From the NCBI RefSeq assembly GCF_008642315.1, contig NZ_CP029192.1:8680001-8744000 (forward strand): DNA of 64,000 bases, given 5' to 3'. This DNA comes from Streptomyces venezuelae. Lineage in GTDB: Bacteria; Actinomycetota; Actinomycetes; Streptomycetales; Streptomycetaceae. Made by a program: the position numbers and the translations under genes. The notes under the pieces are model-generated. The model saw only the letters and a list, made by a program, of their open reading frames with translations. It made no database searches and had not been told where the DNA came from. Shown here in pieces: positions 6,494-46,226 of the stretch (position 1 is the stretch's first letter; each line of letters opens with the position of its first letter).

Positions 6494-8125
6494 TCACTGG
6501 ACGGCGGCGCTCTCAGCCGCCCCCGTTGTCCTTGTTCCCGCCGCCTCGTCCACCCCATCCGCAACGGCGGCGGAACCCGAGTCCCTCGGGCCTCGAAGAG
6601 CAACGTAGACCAGCAGTACGCCCATGACGGCGACGCCCGCCCACATGGCCTGCTGCCAGCCGTCGACGAAGGACTGTTGCGCGGTGTGGACCAGATCCCG
6701 AGAGTGGCTGCCCGTGCTCGGGGCGACCTCGACGGCGTTGGCGACGCCTTGGCGTGCCGTCTCCGCGACGCCCCGCGGGATCCCGTCGAGCTTGTCGGCG
6801 ATGGCACCGCGGTAACCGTTGGCCAGGAGCGCGCCGAGCATCGCGACACCCAGGGCGGTGCCGAGTTCGCGTGTGACGTCATTGAGTGCCGAGGCGACGC
6901 CCTGTGCGGCGCGGGGCAGGGAACCGGTGATGGCCTCGGTGGAGGGAGTCATCGACAGGCCCATGCCGATGCCCATGGCGAGCATGCCGGCGAGAACGGA
7001 CAGGTAACCACCGTCGACGGAGACGAACAGCGCCATCAAGGCGAGGCCGAGGGCGGACAGGGCGATGCCCACGGTCATGGTGGAGCGGGCGCCGACCCTG
7101 GCGGCCATCTTGGGGGCCAGGCCGGACGTCGCCATCATCATGACGGCCATCGGCATCATCGCCACCGTGGACAGCAGGCCCGACCAGCCCAGCACGGCCT
7201 GGAAGAACGGGAACAGGACGACGGCGATACCGGCCTGCACACCGAAGACGACGAGCAGCGTAAGGGAACCGCCGGCCAGCCCGCGCCGACGGAAGAGGCG
7301 TACGTCCAGCAGTGACGCGTCGCGCCGGTGCAGCTCCCAGGCCACGAAGGCGACGGCGGCGACGCCACCGACGGCCAGACCGATGAGCGAGACAGGGGCG
7401 GTCCAGCCGCGCTCGGGGCCTTCCTGCAGGACGAAGATGAGCCCGACCACGGCGATGGCGGACAACGACGCGCCGACGATGTCGAAGGAATGGGCGGAGT
7501 GTTCACGGGAGTTGGGCACCGACTTCACGGTCATCGCCAGCGCGACGACGACCAGTGCCACGGGCAGGGTGAACAGCCACCGCCAGTCCGCGACGTCCAC
7601 GAGGAGCGCGGAGAGGAACATGCCCAGGATGCCGCCACCCCCGGCGACGCCGGTCCACACTCCGATCGCCTTGCCCCGTTGCTCCTCCGGGAAGGTGGAG
7701 GTGATGACGGCCAGCGTGATCGGCATGATCATCGCGGCGCCGACGCCCGCGGCCACGCGCGCGCCGATCATCACCGCGGCCGATGGTGCGAGCCCTGCGA
7801 CGACGCCGGCCGTGCCGAAGACGATCAGTCCGGCGACCAGCATGGGCTTGCGGCCCCATCGGTCGCCGAGCGCACCGAGCGGCAGCAGCAGGGCGGCGAG
7901 GACGAGGGTGTAGATGTTGATGATCCACAGGACCGTGGTCTGCGAGGCGCCCCACTCCACGGCCATGTGGGTCTGGGCGACGTTCAGGCCGGACACCGAC
8001 GCGATGACGGCCATCAGCGCGATCGACACGGCGATGAGGATCGCGCGCAGCTGACGCGCGTCCGGCGTGCCGCCGATACCACTTGTGGGTGTGGCAACTG
8101 TCTGGGGAGGCTGGTTGTCACTCAT
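6494..8125 (-). CDS. MFS drug efflux transporter, DHA2 (EmrB/QacA) type
   Basis: A 543-residue membrane protein with about fourteen hydrophobic segments, the size of DHA2-family proton antiporters that export drugs and other toxic compounds. Visible motifs include LGDRWGRKPMLVAG (the loop 2-3 motif A) and the segment-5 stretch GVGAAMIMPITLAVIT (motif C-like). ATG 8125 follows GAGAGG. It is divergent from an XRE-cupin regulator 137 bp away, the usual layout for a repressor controlling a pump, so that regulator probably controls it. Confidence 0.92.
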   Translation of the reverse strand: MSDNQPPQTVATPTSGIGGTPDARQLRAILIAVSIALMAVIASVSGLNVAQTHMAVEWGASQTTVLWIINIYTLVLAALLLPLGALGDRWGRKPMLVAGLIVFGTAGVVAGLAPSAAVMIGARVAAGVGAAMIMPITLAVITSTFPEEQRGKAIGVWTGVAGGGGILGMFLSALLVDVADWRWLFTLPVALVVVALAMTVKSVPNSREHSAHSFDIVGASLSAIAVVGLIFVLQEGPERGWTAPVSLIGLAVGGVAAVAFVAWELHRRDASLLDVRLFRRRGLAGGSLTLLVVFGVQAGIAVVLFPFFQAVLGWSGLLSTVAMMPMAVMMMATSGLAPKMAARVGARSTMTVGIALSALGLALMALFVSVDGGYLSVLAGMLAMGIGMGLSMTPSTEAITGSLPRAAQGVASALNDVTRELGTALGVAMLGALLANGYRGAIADKLDGIPRGVAETARQGVANAVEVAPSTGSHSRDLVHTAQQSFVDGWQQAMWAGVAVMGVLLVYVALRGPRDSGSAAVADGVDEAAGTRTTGAAESAAVQ

Positions 8126-35840: not shown

Positions 35841-36202
35841 ATGCACGTCGTCCTGGACGAGTGGGCCATGGCCGCAGCCGGTGCAGGCAACGTCCTGGCC
35901 TCGCGGCTGATCCACCGCCCGCATGCCGAGACGGGCTGGTTCCTGTACGCCCCGTCCCGGTCGAAGCCGACCGGGCGCGCCCCGGCACCGCCGAGCACCT
36001 CGCCGCGCTGCCCGGCATCACGGTCCTCGACCTGGACCTGCCCGCGGCGCTCGCAGTGGCTCAGCAGCAGACCTGGGCCGCCGCCCATGCCGAACACGCC
36101 GCCCAGCCCACACTCGACCGGCCCCATGGCGTCGTCATCGCCACCACCGCCCCACGGCAGTGGGAAGACAGGCCTGTGCGTGTTCTGGACCTCACTCCGT
36201 GA
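35841..36202 (+). pseudogene. frameshifted PIN-like small gene
   Basis: Two parts in different frames. The first, from ATG 35841, reads MHVVLDEWAMAAAGAGNVLASRLIH...ETGWFLYAP (acidic Asp6 as in PIN nucleases). After a frame change near 35952, the second reads VEADRARPGTAEHLAALPGITVLDLDLPAALA..., then HGVVIATTAPRQWEDRPVRVLDLTP. Joined, they give a full PIN-like fold (D, E, then D...ATTA). Several bases are missing at the join, so the protein is broken. No antitoxin gene is next to it. Confidence 0.6.
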
Positions 36203-36285
36203 GTCCGACGCTGGGCTGCCGGGCTGATCGAGCAAGGCGCGGGGGTGTGGGCCCCTCCTGTTCCCAGCGCGCTGGAAGCACCTCA

Positions 36286-36379
36286 GCTACTGAAGCGACT
36301 CTCGCCCAGGTACAACGCCGCACCGCAGTCGTGCCGTTGTGAGTGTCTGCGGTTGGGTCGCTTCGGTCGCTTCAGTAGC
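36286..36379. repeat. 14-bp perfect inverted repeat, 66-bp spacer
   Basis: GCTACTGAAGCGAC (36286-36299) is the exact reverse complement of 36366-36379. The interval is not coding. It could be a small IS-like end pair or a looping operator; I see no transposase between them. Confidence 0.65.
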
Positions 36380-36455
36380 GCTCCTCTCCGATGGGAGCGT
36401 ATAGCGCCGCGTACGCCAGCCACGGTGTGCGCTGCACTCGGAGTTGAGGCGGCTG

Positions 36456-37184
36456 CTAGCGACCCGGCGTTTCGCGACAGGACAACTCATTGATCTGTTC
36501 GTCAGTCGGTCGGTATTTTTTCCAATCATCTTCACGGAAGACCTGCGGCAGGACGCTGATGTCCTCGGCCCACTGCATGTCGTCGATGTAGTCCATGATC
36601 GACTTTTTGATCAGAACGCACTTCTGCCGCTGTCCCTTGAGCATGGCGAATCCGTGATTCTCGTAGCCCGGTATGACGGACTGCCCGGTGACTGTGACCC
36701 TCGAGTTCACGCGGGCGTATTCGTAGAGTGTCAGGGCGTCCGAGAGGACAGCGGCGACGTCGCTTCCTTTGTCCAGGAGGGCATTCACACAGTCGCCAAC
36801 TGAAGCTCTCCTCTCGAGCTCTGCGCCAGAAGTCTTCACGAGCGCCTCGCTGAAGGAACTGTCGGGGGAGCACACGACCTTGCCATCGAGATCGGACTTC
36901 TTGGTCAGGGGTTCTGAGCCGGCCAGCGTCAGCAGCGCAGACGGGGCCCGTACGTACGGCCCGACGACGTCGAACCCTCTCATCCGAGATGGAGTGATCG
37001 CGAGCATCACGAACTCGACCGATCGCCGCTGGAGCGCGGCCTCTCGAGACTCCGCGGTCATCTGCACGAAACCCGGCTGCCTCCCGAGTGCCTTGGCCGC
37101 CATGGCACCGACACGCCTCTCGTACCCCGATCCCAGCTGACCGGCGGACCGGCCGGCCCGTTCCTGCGCGATCCCGATCGTCAC
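36456..37184 (-). CDS. solute-binding-like (SBP family 3) domain, probably the detached sensor half of the upstream gene
   Basis: A 242-residue bacterial extracellular solute-binding family 3 domain: VTIGIAQERAGR strand-turn start, QMTAESREAALQRRSVEFVM, the DVVGPYVRAPSALL strand, and KVVCSPDSSFSEALVK near 125. It has no signal peptide, which makes no sense for an extracellular domain on its own. It starts (GTG 37184) 7 bases after the upstream gene's stop. The two frames would join if one base were skipped near CCC-CGA-TGA. See the split-sensor finding. Confidence 0.75.
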   Translation of the reverse strand: MTIGIAQERAGRSAGQLGSGYERRVGAMAAKALGRQPGFVQMTAESREAALQRRSVEFVMLAITPSRMRGFDVVGPYVRAPSALLTLAGSEPLTKKSDLDGKVVCSPDSSFSEALVKTSGAELERRASVGDCVNALLDKGSDVAAVLSDALTLYEYARVNSRVTVTGQSVIPGYENHGFAMLKGQRQKCVLIKKSIMDYIDDMQWAEDISVLPQVFREDDWKKYRPTDEQINELSCRETPGR

Positions 37185-37191
37185 GCTGGGG

Positions 37192-38328
37192 TCATCGGGG
37201 CGCCTGGAGTCTGGTCTGGCGCTGTACGCCCCCCCAGACGAGGAGGGGAGTGAGCAGTGCGGCAGCCACGAGGCCAGCCGTACGACGGGACTTGCGACGC
37301 TGAGGTGATGCGGAGTTTTCGCCGGTAGTCGAGTTGTCGTGGGTTGTCTTGGACAATCCGGCGGCAGCGTCGGTCGGGGTCGCGCCGGGTAGCGGGCTGG
37401 CGTCCGATTCCTGGGGGCCCTTGCTGATGAGGGTTCCGGGAACGGTCCGGGGACCCTTCTGTGCCGCCCCGGAGGTCATATCGGCCTGTCGCAGAACCTG
37501 GGACAGTAGTTCCTCACGCTGCTCGCTGCGGTTGTGCACGAGGTCGAGCCGATCGTCGACGTCGCGGTCCGTCTCCTCCTCGGACAGCGCGCTTCCGTGC
37601 GCGGGGACCGGAAACAGCGCCGGCGTCAACGCCTCGTCGCCGGGTCCGTCCTGGACGGGGACATTTCGCTGAAGTGCCTCGATTTCTCTGAGGACTTCTT
37701 GGCGCTCCCTGAGCAGCACGGTCTGGGCCTGCTCGGCGGTATAGCGGTCGCTCCTGGCACGGTCCAGCTCCGTCTGGATACGGGAAAGACGAAACTTGGC
37801 CTGATCCAGGTGGTGGGCGGATCTGGCACGCTCAATGTCCCGCAAGTGGCTGACCTCGCGGGTGAGGGCCGCGATCCTCGTTTCCTGCTGGCTCGAGAAC
37901 TGCAGCAGCAGACGGATGACCCGCTCGCTGTCCACCGTGACCGCCTGGGCCTTGACCAGGGCGTCCTGTGTCTGGTTGAGCCTTCGGTGGAGGCTGAGCA
38001 GCTCGGTGCTGGCATCGTCGCTCGGCGCAGAGCCGTTCGCCGCGTCCTTCCAGAGCCTGTTGGCCCTGGTGATGAGCTGGTTGCTCCAGTGGTCGGCCTG
38101 TTGATTCCGGAACTCCTGGAGCACTTCGCCCAGCAGTCTCTGAGGAATGAGCTTCTTCCCGTTGAGGTAGTCCGCCCATGTCGAGCGGCTTCCACCGCTA
38201 GGGAAGCGCTCCGCGAGCTTGGCGACGGTGTCGAGGCCAGCCTTTTTGGTGATGTCGACCAGGAATCTGGCCAGCGCCTGCTCCGCGTCCGAGCCGTGGA
38301 ACTCACGGCTCCGCCCTGCCTTGCCCAT
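37192..38328 (-). CDS. HTH/coiled-coil/single-pass membrane protein, N-terminal half of a split sensor
   Basis: A 378-residue protein. Residues 15-75 form an HTH-like domain (TVAKLAERFPSGGSRSTWADYL, then IPQRLLGEVLQEF), residues 100-240 a long coiled coil (LHRRLNQTQDALVKAQ through ALQRNV), then a disordered acidic region, and one membrane helix near 353-372 (TAGLVAAALLTPLLVW). It ends right after the helix, at the point where the solute-binding domain continues in another frame. The cytoplasmic HTH plus outside ligand domain would be a one-component transmembrane regulator. ATG 38328 has GGAGGGGG upstream. Confidence 0.7.
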   Translation of the reverse strand: MGKAGRSREFHGSDAEQALARFLVDITKKAGLDTVAKLAERFPSGGSRSTWADYLNGKKLIPQRLLGEVLQEFRNQQADHWSNQLITRANRLWKDAANGSAPSDDASTELLSLHRRLNQTQDALVKAQAVTVDSERVIRLLLQFSSQQETRIAALTREVSHLRDIERARSAHHLDQAKFRLSRIQTELDRARSDRYTAEQAQTVLLRERQEVLREIEALQRNVPVQDGPGDEALTPALFPVPAHGSALSEEETDRDVDDRLDLVHNRSEQREELLSQVLRQADMTSGAAQKGPRTVPGTLISKGPQESDASPLPGATPTDAAAGLSKTTHDNSTTGENSASPQRRKSRRTAGLVAAALLTPLLVWGGVQRQTRLQAPR

Positions 38329-38480
38329 CGCCCCCTCCGGAGTTGTCCGGCCCCGTCCGGCCCATTCTCCAGCGCTCGTTGCGCTCACCTGGGCTTCCAC
38401 GCCATGAGCAGCCGGACAATCAGAACGCTCCCCAGGCTAGGTGTCCATCTGCCGGATCCCTAACTAAACGGGAGAACACC

Positions 38481-38642
38481 ATGGTTACGAACGCCGTACT
38501 CGACTTCTTGACCGGCCTCCTGGGCAACGTGCTCGGTGACCTCGCTGCGGGACTGCTTATCGCCCTTGGCGGCCCGGGCGTGAAGATGCTCTCCCGGAAG
38601 AAGACCCGCGACCGGGACCACAACGAGCAGCCGCCGCAGTAA
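38481..38642 (+). CDS. small hydrophobic protein
   Basis: A 53-residue protein with GGGAG six bases before ATG 38481. Residues 4-36 form one long hydrophobic helix (VLDFLTGLLGNVLGDLAAGL...), followed by a basic tail (MLSRKKTRDRDHNE). Charge distribution suggests a single-pass membrane peptide with the C terminus inside. It is divergent from the HTH/coiled-coil membrane gene, so it could be its small partner; that is inference. No family recognised. Confidence 0.6.
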   Translation: MVTNAVLDFLTGLLGNVLGDLAAGLLIALGGPGVKMLSRKKTRDRDHNEQPPQ

Positions 38643-39225
38643 CAGGCATGAGGCAGCACGGGGAGAAGAACTTCGCTGCGACCGCCCCCAACGAATCGTT
38701 CGGTGGACGACGACGTACACCGAACCAAATCTCCGCGCGGCCAACGCGACCTGCTCGCCTTTGGGGCGCGAGTACCTAGACCGGCACTTGCCCGAGTGCT
38801 GTCCCCCTTCAGCCGATCATTCCCGGCTGAACGCGAGCGAGTTCACGTGACTGTCCGTCGCATGGTCGCGCTGATTGGAACGCGACGCGGACGAAGAGCT
38901 GAAGAAAGCGGAGGAAGGCGGCACCGTGCGCCACGACGGCTCCCAGGGACAGCAGGGCTGGCCGAGGTGACGGCCCCGGACGGACTCCGTTGTTTCCCGC
39001 ATGGCCCACACCCCTCGCGGTGGCATGCCAAGATCGGCGGCAAGGTGATCCTCGGGGTACGCATCGAGTTCTACAAGAAGGTCGGCGACGTGGGGGAGCC
39101 GTCCCAAGACATGCTGGGCGCGCTCTACCGCGACCACGGGTTCAGAGCCGCAGGGGCCAAGGATTAGTGAGGATCCCCGGTTACCCAAACCGGCGATCGT
39201 CGACTATGTTGCGGTCGCTCCAGCC
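38643..39225. other. 583-bp stretch with gene debris
   Basis: Two biased but unlinked pieces on the plus strand: DADEELKKAEEGGTVRHDGS (38878-38960, stopped) and WHAKIGGKVILGVRIEFYKK followed by GDVGEPSQDMLGALYRDHGF (to 39167) in another frame. They may be one decayed gene. No intact gene found. The transposon inserted immediately to the right. Confidence 0.4.
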
Positions 39226-39228
39226 TTA

Positions 39229-39252
39229 CTGATCGTTTCAGAATGAGGTTCG
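39229..39252. repeat. left terminal inverted repeat of the transposon
   Basis: Perfect 24-bp match to the right end. It overlaps the last codons and stop of the transposase (TGA at 39240-39238), which is normal for compact IS5-family elements. TTA target duplication lies immediately outside. Confidence 0.9.
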
Positions 39253-40046
39253 GAGGCGGCGGAGGCATATGAGGCTGCAGGCCAGTTCAAGCAGACCTTG
39301 GTGGAGGTCAGCGCGTCGTTCGTAGCGGGTGCGGAGCCATTTGAACGGGTGCAGCCAGGTAAAGGCTCGTTCGACGCCCCAGCGCACCTTGCTCAGTCCG
39401 GAGCCGTGGGCGAAGCCGCGTCTCGCGATCAGCGGCTTGATCCCGCGCTTCCACAGCAGGCGGCGTTACTTGTCGAAGTCGTAGCCCCGGTCGGCGTACA
39501 GGCGCCGGGGTTTGGGGCGGGGGCGTCCTCGCCGTCCCCGGATCGACGGTACGGCATCGAGCAGGGGCAGGAGCTGGGTGACGTCATGACGGTTGCCGCC
39601 GGTGAGCGTGACGGCAAGCGGAGTTCCGTGGCGGTCGACGATCAGATGGTGCTTGGAGCCGGGGCGGGCACGGTCAACGGGTGAGGGCCCAACGAGGTCC
39701 CCCCTTTGAGGGCCCGGATGTGAGAACCGTCCACGGAGCAGTCGTCCAAGTCCAGCAGACTCGCGCGGCGCAGCTCGGTGAGCAGGGCAGCATGCAGGCG
39801 TGGCCGGATTCCGGCCCCGGTCCAGTCCCGCAGCCGGCGCCAGGCCGTGACTCCGGAGCAGCCCACGGTCCTGGCGGGGACGTCACACCAGGCAACGCCG
39901 GTCCGCAGGACGTACAAGATGCCGACGAGACCTGCCCGGTCCGGAACACGACACCGTCCAGGATGCCGGTGTCGTCGTTCGGGAGCGGGCGGCAGCGGCG
40001 GGGCCACCCGCTCCCACAGGTCGTCCGGAACAAAATCAGTATGCAC
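39238..40046 (-). pseudogene. IS5-family (IS427-like) DDE transposase, two frames, with a nonsense codon
   Basis: OrfA runs from GTG 40046 (VHTDFVPDDLWERVAP..., GVTAWRRLRDWTGAG..., SVDGSHIRALKGG) to the run AAAGGGGGG near 39699-39707. A -1 slip there enters orfB (DLVGPSPVDRARPGSKHHL..., RRLYADRGYDFDK, WGVERAFTWLHPFKWLRTRYERR), as in IS427-group elements with programmed frameshifting. OrfB carries an in-frame TAA at 39468-39466, where DKYRRLL would have Tyr (one-base change TAC to TAA), before the last catalytic Glu. The rest of the frame is intact, so inactivation is recent. Confidence 0.85.
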
Positions 40047-40102
40047 CGGGACACCCTCCCGACCACGATCGGCGAGCGCAAGACCAGTATGGCTCCACGA
40101 GG

Positions 40103-40133
40103 GTGAGCCCCGGCAGGTGGCGCCGGGGCTCAC
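40103..40133 (-). terminator. hairpin between methyltransferase and transposase in the transposon
   Basis: GTGAGCCCCGGC pairs perfectly with GCCGGGGCTCAC across a 7-base loop, 14 bp after the methyltransferase stop. It would separate passenger expression from the transposase. Confidence 0.8.
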
Positions 40134-40146
40134 ACCAAATGGTTTG

Positions 40147-40893
40147 TCAGCGGTCCATCAGGACGAAAACGCCCCACCCGAGGTATTCACGCTGATACCT
40201 GGCGTGCTGGACCGGTGCCGCGGTCAGTTCCGCGCGCATCTCATCGGCGAGCTCGTCATCGGGATTGGCGTCGAGCCAGCGCTGAATGTTGAGCCACTGA
40301 GCCGCGACGTACCTGTCCCAGCTGTCCTGATCGGCGAGAACCATCTCGACGACGTCGCAGCCCAGGTCCCCGAACTGCTTGAGCAGTTCCGGCAGGGTGA
40401 GCAGGTCGTCCTTTCGGGCCATGTGGCAGCCCTCGACGACCGTCTGGTCCTCCGGTTCGCGGCGCCAGTACGGCTCACCGATCAGCATCGTGCCTCCGGG
40501 AGCGAGGCTGCGCCGCAGGAGTTCGACGGTGCCGGCGACGCCGGCACCGATCCAGGTCGCGCCAATGCAGGCGGCGATTCCGACGGGCTCGTCGGCGACG
40601 TGGCCCGAGGCATCCGCATGCACGAAGTCGACCCGGTCGGCAACGCCCAGCTCCGCAGCTCGCTCACGGGCGGCGTCGAGGAAGACGGTGCTGATGTCGA
40701 CCCCTGTGCCGGAGACACCGTGGTCCCGGGCCCAGGTGCACAGCATCTCGCCCTTGCCGGAGGCGAGGTCGAGCATGCGCGTGCCCGGCGCAGGGCTGAT
40801 GGCCTGGCCCAGGAGAGCGAGCTTGTCGCTGGTGAACGGGTTGCAGATGCGGTGGCTGCTCTCGCGGATGGTGAAGCTACGCGGCAGATCCAT
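40147..40893 (-). CDS. SAM-dependent methyltransferase, transposon passenger
   Basis: A 248-residue class I methyltransferase: MLDLASGKGEMLCTWARDHG (SAM loop) near residue 39, GTGVDISTVFLDAAR (ribose contact), HADASGHVADEPVG, and the RRSLAPGGTMLIGEPYWR strand. C-terminal half has RYVAAQWLNIQRWLDANPDDE. It is closest in feel to small-molecule rather than rRNA or DNA methyltransferases; I see no catalytic NPPY or DNA-MTase motif. AAGGAA precedes ATG 40893. It sits inside the transposon ends, with its own terminator, so it moves with the element. Role (self-resistance, volatile or metalloid methylation) cannot be told. Confidence 0.85.
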   Translation of the reverse strand: MDLPRSFTIRESSHRICNPFTSDKLALLGQAISPAPGTRMLDLASGKGEMLCTWARDHGVSGTGVDISTVFLDAARERAAELGVADRVDFVHADASGHVADEPVGIAACIGATWIGAGVAGTVELLRRSLAPGGTMLIGEPYWRREPEDQTVVEGCHMARKDDLLTLPELLKQFGDLGCDVVEMVLADQDSWDRYVAAQWLNIQRWLDANPDDELADEMRAELTAAPVQHARYQREYLGWGVFVLMDR

Positions 40894-41184
40894 GGCAGGG
40901 GTTCCTTCGGTTCGTGGAGGTCACAACGGCGGGGTTGAGCGGCCGACGGGAGCTGACCGCGAGAACCTGAACCGTCATCAAATACACCTCTTCGAACGTA
41001 TGAAGGCTGGGACGGGTCGAGGCTACGGCCGCCGTGATCACCGTGTCCAACTCAATTGCGTCCGGCTGGCGGGCGCCTCATGTGACGCGGGCCGCTGGCC
41101 TGGCACCGCCTGTCACGAACGGCGCATCCCGCAAGCCCTGGACAAGCTCGGCTGACAACCCCGGCAGGAACGCAGGTGCCTTCT
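40894..41184. other. transposon interior upstream of the passenger
   Basis: 291 bp without an intact gene. It should hold the passenger's promoter (TTGATG at 40977-40972 on the minus strand is a weak -35 candidate). Near the right end a short biased minus-strand frame (RFEKAPAFLPGLSAELVQGL...) ends at 41078; origin unknown. Confidence 0.35.
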
Positions 41185-41208
41185 CGAACCTCATTCTGAA
41201 ACGATCAG
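41185..41208. repeat. right terminal inverted repeat of the transposon
   Basis: Exact reverse complement of 39229-39252, followed by the TTA target duplication at 41209-41211. Confidence 0.9.
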
Positions 41209-41232
41209 TTAAGCCGTGCACGCGCTCGCGGC

Positions 41233-41343
41233 TCAGTTGCCTTCGCTGCCGTGGTCGCCGTGAGATCGGGTGAGGTGGACCATGGCGCGGTAGAGGACGG
41301 CGGAGGCGTCGGCGACGGTGGTGATGAATCCCGCGTCGGTCAT
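41233..41343 (-). CDS. short hypothetical frame beside the transposon
   Basis: Thirty-six codons from ATG 41343 (MTDAGFITTVADASAVLYRA...), nearly all ending in G or C, stop at 41233. No ribosome site and no family. It lies just after the TetR gene and ends 22 bp from the transposon insertion, so it might be the tail of a longer gene or a small real protein. Confidence 0.4.
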   Translation of the reverse strand: MTDAGFITTVADASAVLYRAMVHLTRSHGDHGSEGN

Positions 41344-41366
41344 GAGGAGAATCGGCCGCACGGCGG

Positions 41367-42083
41367 TTACTGGGCGCGCTGGTCGATGAGGGCGGCCAAG
41401 CCGTCCAGGATGCGTTGGAGGCCGAATTCCCATGCCTGGTCCTGCCCCTCGGATTGGGCTGCCGAGGCGAGGGCTCCGGCGAGCGCGGGAAATTGCTCAC
41501 CGTGCGCCTGCATGAGGTCGCCGAGGATGGCGCCGAGCTGGGCCTCGGGTTTGCCCACGGGGCCCGCTGCACGGGCTTGCTGGGTGATGCCGCGTACGTG
41601 ACCGACCAGAAGGACGGCGGCGTCCATCCGCTCGGCACCGCTTAGCCCCGTACCGTCCAGTGCGGCGACGGCGCGCTCCATCCAGGACAACTCCCCAGGT
41701 CCCATCACCCGCGAGCCGAGGGTGGCCTCCAGCGTCCAGGGGTGTTGGGAAAAGACGGCGATCAACTGTCGGGCCCAGTCCTCCAGTTGCTCCCGCCAGC
41801 CACCGTGCGCCTTCTCTGCTGTCGGGTAGGGGCCGATCGCGGCGTCGACCATCAGTGCGACCAGCTCGGCCTTGCCCGGCACGTACCGGTACAGCGCCAT
41901 CTTGGTGACGCCCAGTTGTGCGGCAACCCGCTGCATGGAGACATCGGCGGACCCCTCCGAGTCAGCGATTTCGATGCCGGCCCGCGCAATGCGGGGCAGG
42001 TCGAGTGTCGGCCTGGGGCCCCGCGCGGGCTTCGGGTGCGGCCCCCACAGCAGCCGCGCTGCCTCCGCGTGCTGGTCGCTCAA
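41367..42083 (-). CDS. TetR-family regulator
   Basis: A 238-residue regulator. The HTH (SMQRVAAQLGVTKMALYRYVPGKAELVALM) starts near residue 50, and the C-terminal domain has the TetR_C_1 look (WREQLEDWARQLIAVFSQHPW; LLVGHVRGITQQARA). TTG 42083 with GGAGGA immediately upstream is a better start than earlier codons. Divergent from an FAD monooxygenase with two related palindromes between them, so it almost certainly represses that gene. Confidence 0.88.
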   Translation of the reverse strand: MSDQHAEAARLLWGPHPKPARGPRPTLDLPRIARAGIEIADSEGSADVSMQRVAAQLGVTKMALYRYVPGKAELVALMVDAAIGPYPTAEKAHGGWREQLEDWARQLIAVFSQHPWTLEATLGSRVMGPGELSWMERAVAALDGTGLSGAERMDAAVLLVGHVRGITQQARAAGPVGKPEAQLGAILGDLMQAHGEQFPALAGALASAAQSEGQDQAWEFGLQRILDGLAALIDQRAQ

Positions 42084-42117
42084 GTCTCCTCCGGTCCTGC
42101 CTTGTCGAAGCAATTCA

Positions 42118-42161
42118 ACTGTGTCTATGGTACACAGTAATTATCAGTGTCCGTTGGACAC
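42118..42161. promoter_or_regulatory. two palindromic TetR operators
   Basis: ACTGTGT-N7-ACACAGT (42118-42138) and GTGTCC-GTT-GGACAC (42147-42161) share the half-site (T)GTGTC/GACAC(A). They lie between the TetR start and the monooxygenase start and cover the probable promoters. Confidence 0.7.
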
Positions 42162-42182
42162 AGTTTTAGTGAGAGGTACACC

Positions 42183-43379
42183 GTGAACAGGAACGTCCTC
42201 ATCTCCGGTGCGAGCATCGCCGGCCCCGCGCTGGCCTACTGGCTGGGTCGCCACGGCTTCCACCCCACCGTCGTCGAACTCGCCCCGGCCCTGCGCACGG
42301 GCGGTCACGCCGTCGACTTCCGCGGTGAGACACACCTGACCGTGCTGGAACGCATGGGCCTGCTGCCGGAACTGCGTCGCATCCAGACCGGTGGTAGCCC
42401 GATGCGCTTTGTCGACGAAGCCGGTGAAACGCTGCTGCACCTGCCCGCCGAGTTTGCCGGCGGCGAGATAGAGGTCCTCCGCGAAGACCTGGCCCGGGTG
42501 CTGTACGAGCACAGCGTCCCCCACGCCGAGTACATCTTCGGCGACTCGATCACCGGACTTGCCGAGACCGCGTCCGGCGTGCGGGTCGAGTTCCAAAGCG
42601 GCGCTTCACGCGACTTCGACCTCGTGATCGGGGCGGACGGGCTGCACTCCAACGTCCGCCGCCTCGCCTTCGGTCCGGAGCAGGACTACGTCAGCCATCT
42701 CGGCTACTACGCCGCCACATGGCAGCTCCCCAGAGACAGCTACCCGGGGCTCGCGAAGGGCTCAGTCGGTTACAACGCGCCGGGGCGGCTCGCCTCCGCC
42801 GGTGCCGACCACCGGGACCCGGCGCAGGCGGGAGCATTCTTCGTCTTCGCCGCACCCGAGTTGTCGTACGACAGGCACGACCCCGAACAACAGAAGAAGT
42901 TGATAACCGACGCCCTCTGCGGCCTCGGCTGGGAGGTGCCCCACCTGCTCGCCTCTCTCGATCAGGCCCCCGATCTGTACTTCGATTCGATCAGTCGGGC
43001 CGACGTGGACACCTGGTCCAAAGGGCGGGTGTGCCTCGTCGGCGATGCCGCCTGCGGGGCCACCATCGGCGGCATGGGCACGGGAACCGCCATGGTCGCC
43101 GCCTACGTGCTGGCCGGCGAGCTGGCGCAAGCCCGAGGCGAGCACCGGAGGGCCTTCACCCGATACGAGAGCAGGCTCCGCAAGTACGCGGAGGGCTGTC
43201 AGGCAGGCGGAGAGCGCACCGGCAAGTTCCTGGCCCCTGCCACCGCCACCGGCCTGCGCCTCCGCAACACCTTGCTCTCGCGCCCCCTATTCCTGAACGT
43301 CATGCTCAAGCTGGGGGAGAGGGTCAGCAGCACCATCGCCCTGCCGGACTATCCAGGCGACCCCAGCCGCGTCAGGTGA
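42183..43379 (+). CDS. FAD-dependent aromatic monooxygenase
   Basis: A 398-residue group A flavin monooxygenase (PHBH fold) of the kind that hydroxylates aromatics or polyketides and inactivates tetracycline- or rifamycin-like drugs. FAD motif GASIAGPALAYWLGRHG at residue 8, the DFDLVIGADGLHSNVR motif near 150, and the GDAACGATIGGMGTGTAM ribityl motif near 287 are complete. GTG 42183 has GAGAGG seven bases upstream. Regulated, by layout, by the divergent TetR protein; a ligand-induced detoxification unit is the likely role. Confidence 0.9.
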   Translation: MNRNVLISGASIAGPALAYWLGRHGFHPTVVELAPALRTGGHAVDFRGETHLTVLERMGLLPELRRIQTGGSPMRFVDEAGETLLHLPAEFAGGEIEVLREDLARVLYEHSVPHAEYIFGDSITGLAETASGVRVEFQSGASRDFDLVIGADGLHSNVRRLAFGPEQDYVSHLGYYAATWQLPRDSYPGLAKGSVGYNAPGRLASAGADHRDPAQAGAFFVFAAPELSYDRHDPEQQKKLITDALCGLGWEVPHLLASLDQAPDLYFDSISRADVDTWSKGRVCLVGDAACGATIGGMGTGTAMVAAYVLAGELAQARGEHRRAFTRYESRLRKYAEGCQAGGERTGKFLAPATATGLRLRNTLLSRPLFLNVMLKLGERVSSTIALPDYPGDPSRVR

Positions 43380-43739
43380 TGAATGACGCGGACTTCAGTG
43401 AAAGGAGTCCGGCGCCGGGGGGAGTCCGGCGGCTCTCATGCATGAGTTGTTCTGAGGGGCCATGGCCCCACCGGACCGCATCCGGTGTGCCCCTGATTCT
43501 TGTTCTCATACCCTCTCGCACAACAGCTTTCGGACAAAGCCCCTCGCGACAGGTCCTGCGACATCTGGCGCCCGCCGAACCGGCCTCCGCCGTCAAGCGG
43601 TTCGACCAGTCTCTGCGGTGCCCGCTGGGAGTGCCTGCCGTCCCAAGGTGGCGAAGTCGCACCGAAATACCGCGCCCCCGCTGCGCGCTCGCTCTTCAAC
43701 TCTGCACGGAGCTCGAAGTGCGCGCCCTCGCCGATCGTG
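43380..43739. other. 360-bp stretch without a gene
   Basis: No frame with start and bias on either strand. It lies between the monooxygenase and an IS110 scrap, and is probably decayed sequence. Confidence 0.4.
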
Positions 43740-43850
43740 GACCCGGCGTCCACAACGCTTTTGAAGTCGGTTGGTGATGCGGGTCCGCTCGTTGACCAAG
43801 GTCGTTGTGCCTCTCGGTCAGCAACCGCAGGATCGTGGACTGGGGCCTAG
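43740..43850 (-). pseudogene. IS110-family transposase scrap
   Basis: Minus-strand reading gives RLLTERHNDL in one frame and, one base shifted, VNERTRITNRLQ, which together resemble the conserved helix before the second domain of IS110 transposases. Too short to place further. It abuts the truncated DinB-like gene. Confidence 0.4.
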
Positions 43851-44200
43851 GTCTCGTCCGGCACCTCGCCGACGTGGAGCGCCGCTGGTTCCGGCGTGTG
43901 CTCGCAGGAGAGGAAGCGCCGCTCCTCTGCGGCTCCGACGAACACCCTGACCAGGACTTCGACGGCGCCGTCCCCGATCCGGCCGTCACCGCCGCCGCGT
44001 GGGATGCCTGGCGTGCCGAGGTGGCGTTCGCCGACCGGCTGACCGCCGAGGCACCCGCCCTCGACGTCGAGGGCGACGACGGATGGCGCGGAGCGGTCGC
44101 ACTGCGCTGGGTGCTCATCCATGTGATCGAGGAGTACGCCCGGCACAACGGCCACGCCGACCTGCTCCGCGAGCGGATCGACGGCGCGATCGGCGTGTAG
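43850..44200 (+). pseudogene. N-terminally truncated DinB/DUF664-family gene
   Basis: 117 codons of a DUF664 (DinB-fold) protein without its beginning: LVRHLADVERRWFRRVLAGE near the cut end, DFDGAVPDPAVTAAAWDAWRAEV, and the C-terminal VLIHVIEEYARHNGHADLLRERIDG with the metal-binding His pattern. About 40 N-terminal residues, including the first metal His, are lost where IS110 debris begins, so the product is unlikely to work. The codon bias of the remaining part is intact, so the truncation is recent. Confidence 0.7.
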
Positions 44201-44214
44201 ACGATGATCACTGC

Positions 44215-44877
44215 ATGAACCTGAGCGAGATCACGTTGATGTCCGACCCGAAGGTGGCCGCCGTACCGGTCCGGGAGTGCGGGGAGCGCCTGGTGGACGT
44301 ACGCCACGAGAGCATGCTCCTGGTCGATACGCGCGCCCAGGACCCCGAGGACGCCTTCGCCCGGCTGCGCGAAGGCGTCCTGATCCGCCTTGTGCACGCC
44401 CAGACGCTGCTGCCCGACGGACTGCGCCTGTTGTTCGTCGAGGGCTACCGGCCGCCGTGGCTGCAGCGCCGTTACTTCGAGGAGTACGCGGGTCAGCTCA
44501 GGGCCCTGCATCCCGGCTGGCCCGCCGAGCGCCTGCACGCGGCGGCGAGCCGCTATGTCTCCCCGCCGGACATCGCACCGCACAGCGCGGGCTCCGCCGT
44601 CGATCTCACCCTCGCCGAGGCCGACGGTCACGAACTCGACCTCGGCACCCGGATGAACGCGGACCCCGAGGAGAGCGAGGGCGCCTGCTACACCGAGGCC
44701 GACACCATCTCCGCCGAGGCCCGTCGCAACCGGGACATACTCGGAACGGTCCTGCGGGAGGCGGGCCTGGTCAACTACCCCACCGAGTGGTGGCACTGGT
44801 CGTACGGAGACCGCTACTGGGCCCTGGCGACGGGCGCGCCGCACGCCCTCTACGGGGCGGTGGAATCAGGCGGGTGA
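44215..44877 (+). CDS. D-Ala-D-Ala dipeptidase (VanX/DdpX family)
   Basis: A 220-residue zinc dipeptidase of the VanX family, which cleaves D-Ala-D-Ala. Motifs: LLFVEGYRPPWLQRR near residue 78, the zinc site HSAGSAVDLTL near 122, and EWWHWSYGDRYW near 190 with the catalytic Glu and third zinc His. No VanH/VanA genes are adjacent, so this is a stand-alone cell-wall recycling or peptide-scavenging enzyme rather than a vancomycin cluster. Its end overlaps the convergent TetR gene by 12 bp. Confidence 0.88.
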   Translation: MNLSEITLMSDPKVAAVPVRECGERLVDVRHESMLLVDTRAQDPEDAFARLREGVLIRLVHAQTLLPDGLRLLFVEGYRPPWLQRRYFEEYAGQLRALHPGWPAERLHAAASRYVSPPDIAPHSAGSAVDLTLAEADGHELDLGTRMNADPEESEGACYTEADTISAEARRNRDILGTVLREAGLVNYPTEWWHWSYGDRYWALATGAPHALYGAVESGG

Positions 44878-45531
44878 GGACGCTGGCGTCGTCAGGCGCG
44901 TGACGAGGTCGTGCCACGCGGCGTCCAGGCGGTCCAGCGGCATGCCGCGTTCGACGGTGAGGTGATGCACGAGGACGCCGTCGACCGACCCGAGCAGGGT
45001 GTGCGCGAGGAGTTCCGCGTCGCCCGCGACGCCCGCCTGGCGCAGCAGCATCGTGACGTGCGTGAGCCGCAGCCGGTGCGCCGGGACCGCGTAGGTGCGC
45101 AGCGGGTCGGTCCGTGAGGACAGCAGCAGTTCGTGGTGGTCGCGCTCGTGGCGGATCAGGGCGGGCCCGAACGCGTGCAGCCGCTCCAGGGCCGGGGCGT
45201 CGGGGCCCAGCGGGGCGGGTCCTGAGAGGAACGCGGCCTGGAGCTGCTCCTCGCGGTGGTCGAGCAGGGCGACCAGGAGCCCGGTGCGGTCGCCGAAGCG
45301 CCGGAAGACGGTCCCTTTGCCGACGCCTGCCGCCGTGGCCACCGCGTCCATGGTCAGTTGCGCGGCGCCGCATCCCGCCATCAGTTGTGAGGCGGCCTCC
45401 AGGAGCCGCGTGCGGTTGCGCGCCGCATCGGCCCTGAGCGACGGCGGCTCGCCCACCGGGGTGAGGGCGAGCTCGATCGACCCGCCCGGTCTGTCGGGCG
45501 AGGGGAGGGGAGGGAGAACGGAGCCGGTCAT
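44866..45531 (-). CDS. TetR-family regulator of the FMN reductase gene
   Basis: A 221-residue TetR protein: RTRLLEAASQLMAGCGAAQLTMDAVATAAGVGKGTVFRRFGDRTGLL (HTH near residues 40-85), then an all-helical ligand domain (QAGVAGDAELLAHTLLGSVDGVLVHHL). ATG 45531. It is divergent from an NADPH-dependent FMN reductase, and the gap has two copies of a GGACC/GGTCC palindrome, so it is the likely repressor of that gene and itself. Confidence 0.88.
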   Translation of the reverse strand: MTGSVLPPLPSPDRPGGSIELALTPVGEPPSLRADAARNRTRLLEAASQLMAGCGAAQLTMDAVATAAGVGKGTVFRRFGDRTGLLVALLDHREEQLQAAFLSGPAPLGPDAPALERLHAFGPALIRHERDHHELLLSSRTDPLRTYAVPAHRLRLTHVTMLLRQAGVAGDAELLAHTLLGSVDGVLVHHLTVERGMPLDRLDAAWHDLVTRLTTPASSPA

Positions 45532-45562
45532 GAATCCAGCGTAGCGCCCCGAGCCGCTAAGT

Positions 45563-45610
45563 GGACCGCGGTCCGGATTGGTGGTACAACTTTAAACGGA
45601 CCCCGGTCCG
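45563..45610. promoter_or_regulatory. paired palindromic operators for the TetR regulator
   Basis: GGACCGCGGTCC (45563-45574) and CGGACC-CC-GGTCCG (45597-45610) share GGACCnnGGTCC and lie 34 bp apart, close to three helical turns. They flank the TTTAAA-containing promoter region of the FMN reductase. Confidence 0.8.
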
Positions 45611-45665
45611 ATTGCGTCGTTATCCGTATCTGAGAGTCCCGCCCCCACTTTTCAGGAGTTCCGCC

Positions 45666-46226
45666 ATGTCTGTACGCATCGTCGCCCTCGTCGGCAGCCT
45701 CCGCGCCGGCTCGCACAATCGCCAGCTCGCCGAGGCCGCCGCCAAGCACGCGCCCGCAGGTGTGGACGTCGAGCTGTTCGAAGGTCTTGCGGACGTGCCC
45801 TTCTACAACGAGGACGTCGACGTCGAGGGCGGCGTCCCGGCTGCCGCGACCCGTCTGCGCGAGGCCGCAGGAAGCGCCGACGCCTTCCTCCTCTTCTCGC
45901 CGGAGTACAACGGCACCATGCCCGCCGTGCTCAAGAACGCGATCGACTGGCTGTCCCGCCCGTACGGCGCCGGCGCAATCTCCGGCAAGCCGGTCGCCGT
46001 CGTGGGCACCGCTTTCGGTCAGTACGGCGGTGTGTGGGCGCAGGACGACGCACGCAAGGCCGCGGGCATCGCGGGCGGCGTGGTCGTGGAGGACGTCAAG
46101 CTGTCCATCCCCGCATCCCTGACCCGCTTCGCCGAGATCCACCCGGCGGACGACACTGAGGTGGTCACCGCCCTTACCGAGGTCGTCGCCCGCCTCACCC
46201 AGCAGGCCACGCCCGCCGCTGCCTGA
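45666..46226 (+). CDS. NADPH-dependent FMN reductase / quinone reductase
   Basis: A 186-residue flavodoxin-fold reductase: IVALVGSLRAGSHNRQLAEAA (phosphate loop) at the start, SPEYNGTMPAVLKNAIDWLSRP (FMN contact) near 77, and VVGTAFGQYGG near 117. It reduces FMN or quinones with NADPH in the cytoplasm. AGGAG precedes ATG 45666. Controlled, by layout, by the divergent TetR protein; such pairs commonly respond to quinones or electrophiles. Confidence 0.9.
   Translation: MSVRIVALVGSLRAGSHNRQLAEAAAKHAPAGVDVELFEGLADVPFYNEDVDVEGGVPAAATRLREAAGSADAFLLFSPEYNGTMPAVLKNAIDWLSRPYGAGAISGKPVAVVGTAFGQYGGVWAQDDARKAAGIAGGVVVEDVKLSIPASLTRFAEIHPADDTEVVTALTEVVARLTQQATPAAA

Follow-up and report, generated by a model that had tools for sequence, protein, structure and literature searches.

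The 1980-bp unit described here is very probably a transporter insertion sequence, an IS427-type element of the IS5 family in which the transposase and a captured gene would move together into T(A/T)A targets. It is a member of an IS5-family lineage of transporter IS whose elements frequently have cargo; across this wider lineage the genes carried are numerous and unrelated to one another, mostly one per element. Transporter IS (tIS) are an established class, in which a passenger gene lies inside the IS ends together with the transposase and moves along, as described in PMC9330008.

The window, i.e. the whole 64-kb stretch of DNA that was analysed, covers 8.68-8.744 Mb of the 8.94-Mb Streptomyces venezuelae genome, which consists of one contig. 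Within it, the unit occupies positions 39229-41208 and contains one two-frame transposase and one intact methyltransferase (MT). The terminal inverted repeats, at 39229-39252 (plus strand, beside the 3' terminus of the transposase; relatives have the same end) and 41185-41208 (minus strand, of the same type as the left one), are complementary at 24/24 positions, and TTA stands immediately outside both of them (39226-39228 and 41209-41211). We take the two TTA copies for a target-site duplication (TSD); TWA-type 3-mers are typical of the relatives. With up to three mismatches allowed, the two repeats were the only matches in the window, and 100 shuffles yielded none. A scan of the whole genome returned eight matches, the window's own unit being the only complete copy. 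The ends, the TTA repeats and the length of the unit had been described in the same way by an initial annotation made from the sequence, and its two-frame IS427-like transposase and 248-residue methyltransferase were likewise confirmed. No second transposase and no inner IS ends were found within the unit. Outside the unit, the stretch 38659-38787 resembles istB of IS21-like elements on Rhodococcus plasmids, so that the left flank contains other IS remnants. Just beyond the right end, at 41367-43379, a TetR regulator lies divergent from an FAD monooxygenase, which scored 240.9 bits with a tetracycline-destructase model and thus far below its cut-off of 550.

The transposase is encoded on the minus strand. 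Its first frame (39642-40133) carries PF13340 (DUF4096) at residues 36-114, and the second frame (39238-39707, with the stop codon at 39238-39240), which contains the pieces of DDE_Tnp_1 (PF01609), would be reached by a -1 shift near 39699-39707. At this change of frame lies the A3G6 run AAAGGGGGG (39699-39707, minus strand), the likely frameshift site. Exactly this run was found in 54 of 80 transposase loci and a run of the type A2-4G4-9 in 70 of them. Given that the run is kept across the 80 loci, the two-frame layout is considered a family trait, and the conserved slippery run rules out the two frames as a sign of decay; we predict that the frames are joined by a -1 shift at this site. A two-frame transposase with PF13340 and PF01609 presumably belongs to the IS427 group of the IS5 family. 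Relatives are annotated as 'IS5 family transposase' in several plasmid records, and short terminal inverted repeats and a target repeat of 2-4 bp, as in the IS5 family, are present. The designation as IS427-type is founded on the transposase and the ends, both as read from the sequence. IS427-type elements without a passenger have a length of about 0.8-1 kb, a range that is not matched by the 1980 bp found here, compared with 883-887 bp in plain relatives with matching target repeats; this excess in length is due to the cargo. Two properties of the element had been missed by the initial annotation, one of them an in-frame stop in the catalytic domain (39466-39468, minus strand). PF01609 matches both second-frame pieces that flank this stop when they are searched apart, and the position is open in all five relatives compared (nine were tried, with no motif located in the other four). 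The window's transposase copy is probably inactive, and the element can probably no longer be moved by the enzyme that it encodes.

The other property is the loss of the normal upstream end of the IS. The relatives align to unit positions 1-860 and have their own second end at about 883-888, the plain IS being about 886 bp long. In the window this end (around position 886 in plain relatives) is absent, and the MT segment starts in its place. Homology to the IS stops at about 40085 and homology to other MT loci starts at 40095 or beyond (40095 in L039 and L041, 40098-40146 in other loci), which locates the junction at 40085-40095.

The passenger (40147-40893, minus strand) encodes a class I SAM-dependent methyltransferase of 248 aa that we assign to the YjhP family. 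A profile of the MT family matched the PDB entries 1nkv (yjhP of E. coli), 5bp7 and 5epe over the full length (positions 1-248, E 8e-114 to 9e-122); what distinguishes the present gene from these proteins, despite the full-length likeness, is its location inside an IS. The dN/dS ratios of 0.10 in comparison to S. resistomycificus and of 0.13 in comparison to L039 and L041 point to strong purifying selection on the gene. A hairpin with perfect 12-bp arms (40103-40133), assigned here as the MT terminator, is present in six of eight MT loci (L039, L040, L041, L044, L046 and, imperfectly, L043) and absent from L038 and L045. The strong hairpin listed in the initial annotation is therefore real, but being common to other MT loci it is part of the MT and was rejected as an IS component. 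Upstream of the gene, 140-220 bp are common to seven of the eight aligned MT loci besides L038. An alignment of MT loci reveals in this conserved 5' region a putative 33-codon leader ORF (40877-40978, minus strand) with a GAAGAGG ribosome-binding-like site, which is kept in other MT loci and may control the MT gene. Conserved upstream region, leader ORF and terminator hairpin together suggest that a whole transcription unit, composed of upstream region, gene and terminator, was captured with the MT. The earlier proposal that the enzyme gives resistance or modifies a target found no support: an NCBIfam search of the MT yielded no model above its cut-off, and the PDB match places it in the YjhP family, which leaves a role as an antibiotic-resistance enzyme unsupported. 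Two MT loci of the same homology, L010 and L013, sit in contigs of 8.2 and 8.5 Mb. The plasmid collection also contains enterobacterial records (E. coli, Klebsiella and Salmonella) with annotated MT relatives of approximately 60% identity, and the MT family may be mobile elsewhere too.

To view the unit in the context of its family, 81 transposase loci were parsed (20 from a first list, 60 fetched later, and the window), of which 80 were counted after L141, which overlaps L014, had been dropped; L020, L026, L033 and L037 were replaced by longer fetches. The set was taken from the top portion of the listed matches to the window's transposase, and the window itself counts as one of the 80. At 51 of the 80 loci, including the window, an end facing outward was identified outside the body of the plain 886-bp IS. 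In total, 53 distal ends face outward (24 at the transposase 3' end and 29 at the other) versus two with the opposite orientation in the same space. By comparison, no end at up to four mismatches in 18 was found in 1,086,547 bases from 118 control loci, which are mostly MT loci, overlap in part and do not include L038.

End pairs were found at 58/80 loci, with 22 loci lacking a pair. Identical TNA triplets on both sides were observed for 32 of the 58 pairs, comprising 24 extended elements of 1222-2915 bp and eight plain ones of 883-887 bp. Of all 46 pairs with a TNA triplet at each end, 14 were unmatched (eight extended, six plain), and TNA was missing on at least one side in 12 further pairs (eight extended, four plain). 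Hence, where TNA stands on both sides, it matches in 24/32 extended and 8/14 plain pairs; four loci (L125, L158, L163 and L167) were classed as plain although a distal end is also present. The 3-mers beside ends with at most one mismatch in the parsed loci were TAA (62) and TTA (39), every other listed 3-mer occurring at most three times. Because of this dominance of TAA and TTA, a 3-bp TWA repeat will match by chance about half the time, and end pairs were moreover picked with matching repeats first. More weight is accordingly given to the orientation control. As a separate observation on the distribution of the family, 19 of 34 IS-family loci on long contigs are at most 300 kb away from the end of their contig, as compared to 2.4 expected for a uniform distribution; this set is a hand-made list of long contigs, whose ends were taken as chromosome ends.

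The 44 extra segments carried by these elements fall into 24 clusters, 15 of which have a TSD-matched member. Besides the MT of the window, the passengers recognized by Pfam, some of them in unmatched elements, include DUF6896, two GNATs, an ABM monooxygenase, a nucleotidyltransferase (NTP_transf_6), a glycine-cleavage H protein (GcvH), a PHP-type protein, an FAD monooxygenase with a TetR regulator, a CPCC protein and unknowns. An SMI1/KNR4-like passenger reached 24.8 bits, with a cut-off of 25.4, and a VapB-like one also scored below the Pfam cut-off. None of eight passengers, most of them without a Pfam match, was named by an NCBIfam search. No ORF of at least 70 aa was listed for L151 and L147, and the best ORF of L144 has a low GC3. 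Passengers sit on either side of the transposase, and one type of 161 aa was found in both positions, left in L027 but right in L163, L164 and L167. Thirteen passenger pairs had dN/dS ratios of 0.16-0.54. When the cargo labels, which were set by hand, were placed on a quick transposase tree of 80 rows, the resolved rows required at least 30 changes, unresolved rows being uncounted and L016 and L030 being labelled by their passenger without a full end pair. On the same tree, the FAD monooxygenase with TetR, the type shared by L015 and L028 and the SMI1-like type are each compatible with a single branch. Passengers thus appear to have been exchanged often, yet also inherited. With midpoint rooting, the window falls into a group of 54 rows that contains only two plain elements, 18 rows being unresolved. 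The cargo element L165 reaches 2915 bp because further transposase-like ORFs, IS630-like by eye, are nested inside it; its passenger segment is 99.7% identical to that of L169 in another genome over 392 bp.

Evidence from several loci argues that sister elements with other passengers do behave as units. Loci with a common passenger have unrelated 400-bp flanks, barring two short weak matches (L025/L031 and L163/L167). Genome G005 harbours two cargo elements, located at 4.84 and 6.75 Mb, that agree at 1437/1437 positions but differ in their flanks, one of them bordered by TAA/TAA and the other by TTA/TAA. The 1693-bp element L035 (TAA/TAA) splits a HEAT-repeat gene, and when its flanks are joined without the element and one TAA, they align gapless at the junction with five relatives of 621-622 aa, the best of them showing 88% identity over 99% of the query.

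The evidence concerning the MT itself is of a different kind. Out of 357 relatives, 80 MT loci were kept, and an IS end with up to three mismatches was present within the fetched flanks of only one of them, L038 of Streptomyces resistomycificus (the same place as L009 of genome G343, from which the genus of the relatives was taken to be Streptomyces). At the corresponding place, this locus has an outward-facing right IS end followed by TTA, with one mismatch in the core and two in the 24-mer. The sequence past this end could not be aligned to the window (36001-46000 compared), which indicates a different site. No piece of an IS427-type transposase was found at L038. Directly behind its MT, at 6790-7705 (boundaries by eye), there is apparently an IS5-family element whose transposase ORF we take to be ISL2-like; it starts where the homology to the window stops. 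A second copy with both transposase and MT was absent from the matches listed for a genus draw of 392 genomes, from a family draw of 394 genomes and from 61 relatives, strict E-value limits having been applied to the latter two and to a repeat search of the genus draw, and the two genes did not occur together in 72,556 plasmid records. The three sets have genomes in common, and only a small number of candidates was scored in each genome. Further MT matches reaching the right IS end were likewise not seen in the 392, 394 and 61 genomes at the E-value limits used. The initial annotation had proposed to look for other copies with both genes between the same ends, and that none was seen in the genomes and plasmids searched counts against its claim as far as the MT alone is concerned. 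Its second proposal, a comparison with the empty site, was equally without success: the right flank, compared with 353 genomes at E<=1e-60, matched 20 other genomes, in all cases only from 41363 on, the left flank gave only partial matches to plasmids, and no convincing gene spans the junction of the joined flanks. With no second complete copy and one partial one, the case of the window stands on its anatomy and on the right part in S. resistomycificus. The notion that the MT spreads with the element is therefore upheld with regard to the structure and to the movement of sister elements as units; against it, the right end and TTA accompany the MT in S. resistomycificus without an IS427-type transposase, and support for the MT itself as a moving passenger is weaker than that for the passengers of the sister elements.

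It may be argued that a plain IS merely came to lie beside a resident MT with an unrelated leftover tip opposite, and that the two never moved jointly. The unit is a single copy with a broken transposase, its empty site was not found and its left flank holds the istB-like remnant of another IS, all of which would fit such a chance neighbourhood. However, the right tip faces outward and is identical to the left one at 24/24 positions, whereas none of the 118 control loci has such a tip; the same junction of MT and tip, together with TTA, recurs in a second species at a different site; the IS lacks its normal inner end; and the layout is repeated with many other passengers. We therefore regard a chance neighbourhood as unlikely. 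Considerably less probable is a composite transposon, in which the gene would still be flanked by two IS copies that are each able to move alone as well. Both ends are of one type, as expected if the right one derives from an inverted second copy, and L034 and L129 retain remains of such a copy, but the unit has one transposase, two ends and no inner ends. It is at most a collapsed composite, and only its origin could be composite. The least credible explanation in our opinion is that the extra genes, the MT included, belong to the biology of the IS itself, for instance as regulators or helpers of transposition, and are not cargo. In its favour, certain passengers are found repeatedly within sub-lineages, and selection acts on passengers. 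It is opposed by the variety of passengers in TSD-matched elements (15 different clusters, located to the left or to the right of the transposase), by the existence of plain 883-887-bp elements with matching repeats, and by passengers such as GcvH, GNAT and an FAD monooxygenase with TetR.

For the transporter IS preferred here, we suggest that the IS lost its own upstream end and was instead closed by a second outward-facing copy of the terminal repeat beyond the captured host gene, after which transposase and gene would have transposed jointly into T(A/T)A targets. Capture may have started with a gene enclosed between two IS copies in inverted orientation, one of which would have decayed to its tip while the other lost its inner end. 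Such a decay of a two-copy arrangement is the most likely origin in our view, and the window's unit would have arrived as a whole. At the distal end of L034, unit positions 1-32 and, next to them, 86-113 are preserved from a second, inverted and internally deleted IS copy. Subterminal bases were retained at the distal end at 23 of 26 positions in L129, 18 in L142 and L151 and 17 in L146; the remaining distal ends, among them that of the window with 8 of 26, keep 3-13 of 26, values that do not clearly exceed the approximately 6.5 expected by chance. Furthermore, old inner ends persist as relicts in several left-extended elements.

In comparison with known systems, the unit has in common with the IS427 group the two-frame PF13340/PF01609 transposase, the slippery run, short inverted repeats, a 3-bp TNA target and a plain form of about 886 bp, but it differs in being a 1980-bp unit with a foreign gene, in which the upstream end is lost and a distal one is used instead. 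Integron gene cassettes, which are diverse and mostly single genes in a common mobile frame, resemble the cargo of this family in that organization; in contrast to them, no integrase or recombination site was seen here, and every cargo is accompanied by a transposase and terminal repeats of its own. Composite transposons and TMos, in which a host gene is mobilised by IS ends, resemble the present elements, as described in PMC9330008, in the mobilisation of a host gene and in a likely origin from two IS copies, and differ in that the elements found here, without a second IS or inner ends, are closed by two outer ends. The tIS likewise carry a non-transposase gene between both ends of one IS, whereas here the cargo is common across the whole lineage and the passengers are diverse. 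While the transporter-IS class was already known, the lineage-wide and diverse cargo is the new point; no IS5-family element with a passenger was found in the literature searched, a scope to which most subscription papers do not belong.

Elements of this kind are commonly regarded as moving nothing but themselves, and IS elements are normally annotated as 'transposase only', with the neighbour as a separate gene. On plasmid NZ_CP108443.1, the record of L130, the transposase, the FAD monooxygenase and TetR are indeed annotated separately; the repeats of this copy do not match. Should short IS frequently transport host genes, part of the horizontal gene flow in the chromosome arms and plasmids of Streptomyces would have been overlooked, small unknown proteins, enzymes and regulators included. 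Since plain forms coexist in it with forms that carry cargo to the left or to the right, with remnants of inner ends and with second copies in decay, the family is well suited to study how an IS turns into a gene carrier. Tentatively, and with slightly less than even confidence, we propose that the lineage acts as a natural gene shuttle, in which the replacement of an end may have enclosed whole transcription units next to the transposase time and again, and in which these units may have turned over faster than the transposase, been retained under selection and passed from species to species, with a concentration in chromosome arms and a presence also on linear plasmids. If this holds true, the lineage would be for IS what gene cassettes are for integrons.
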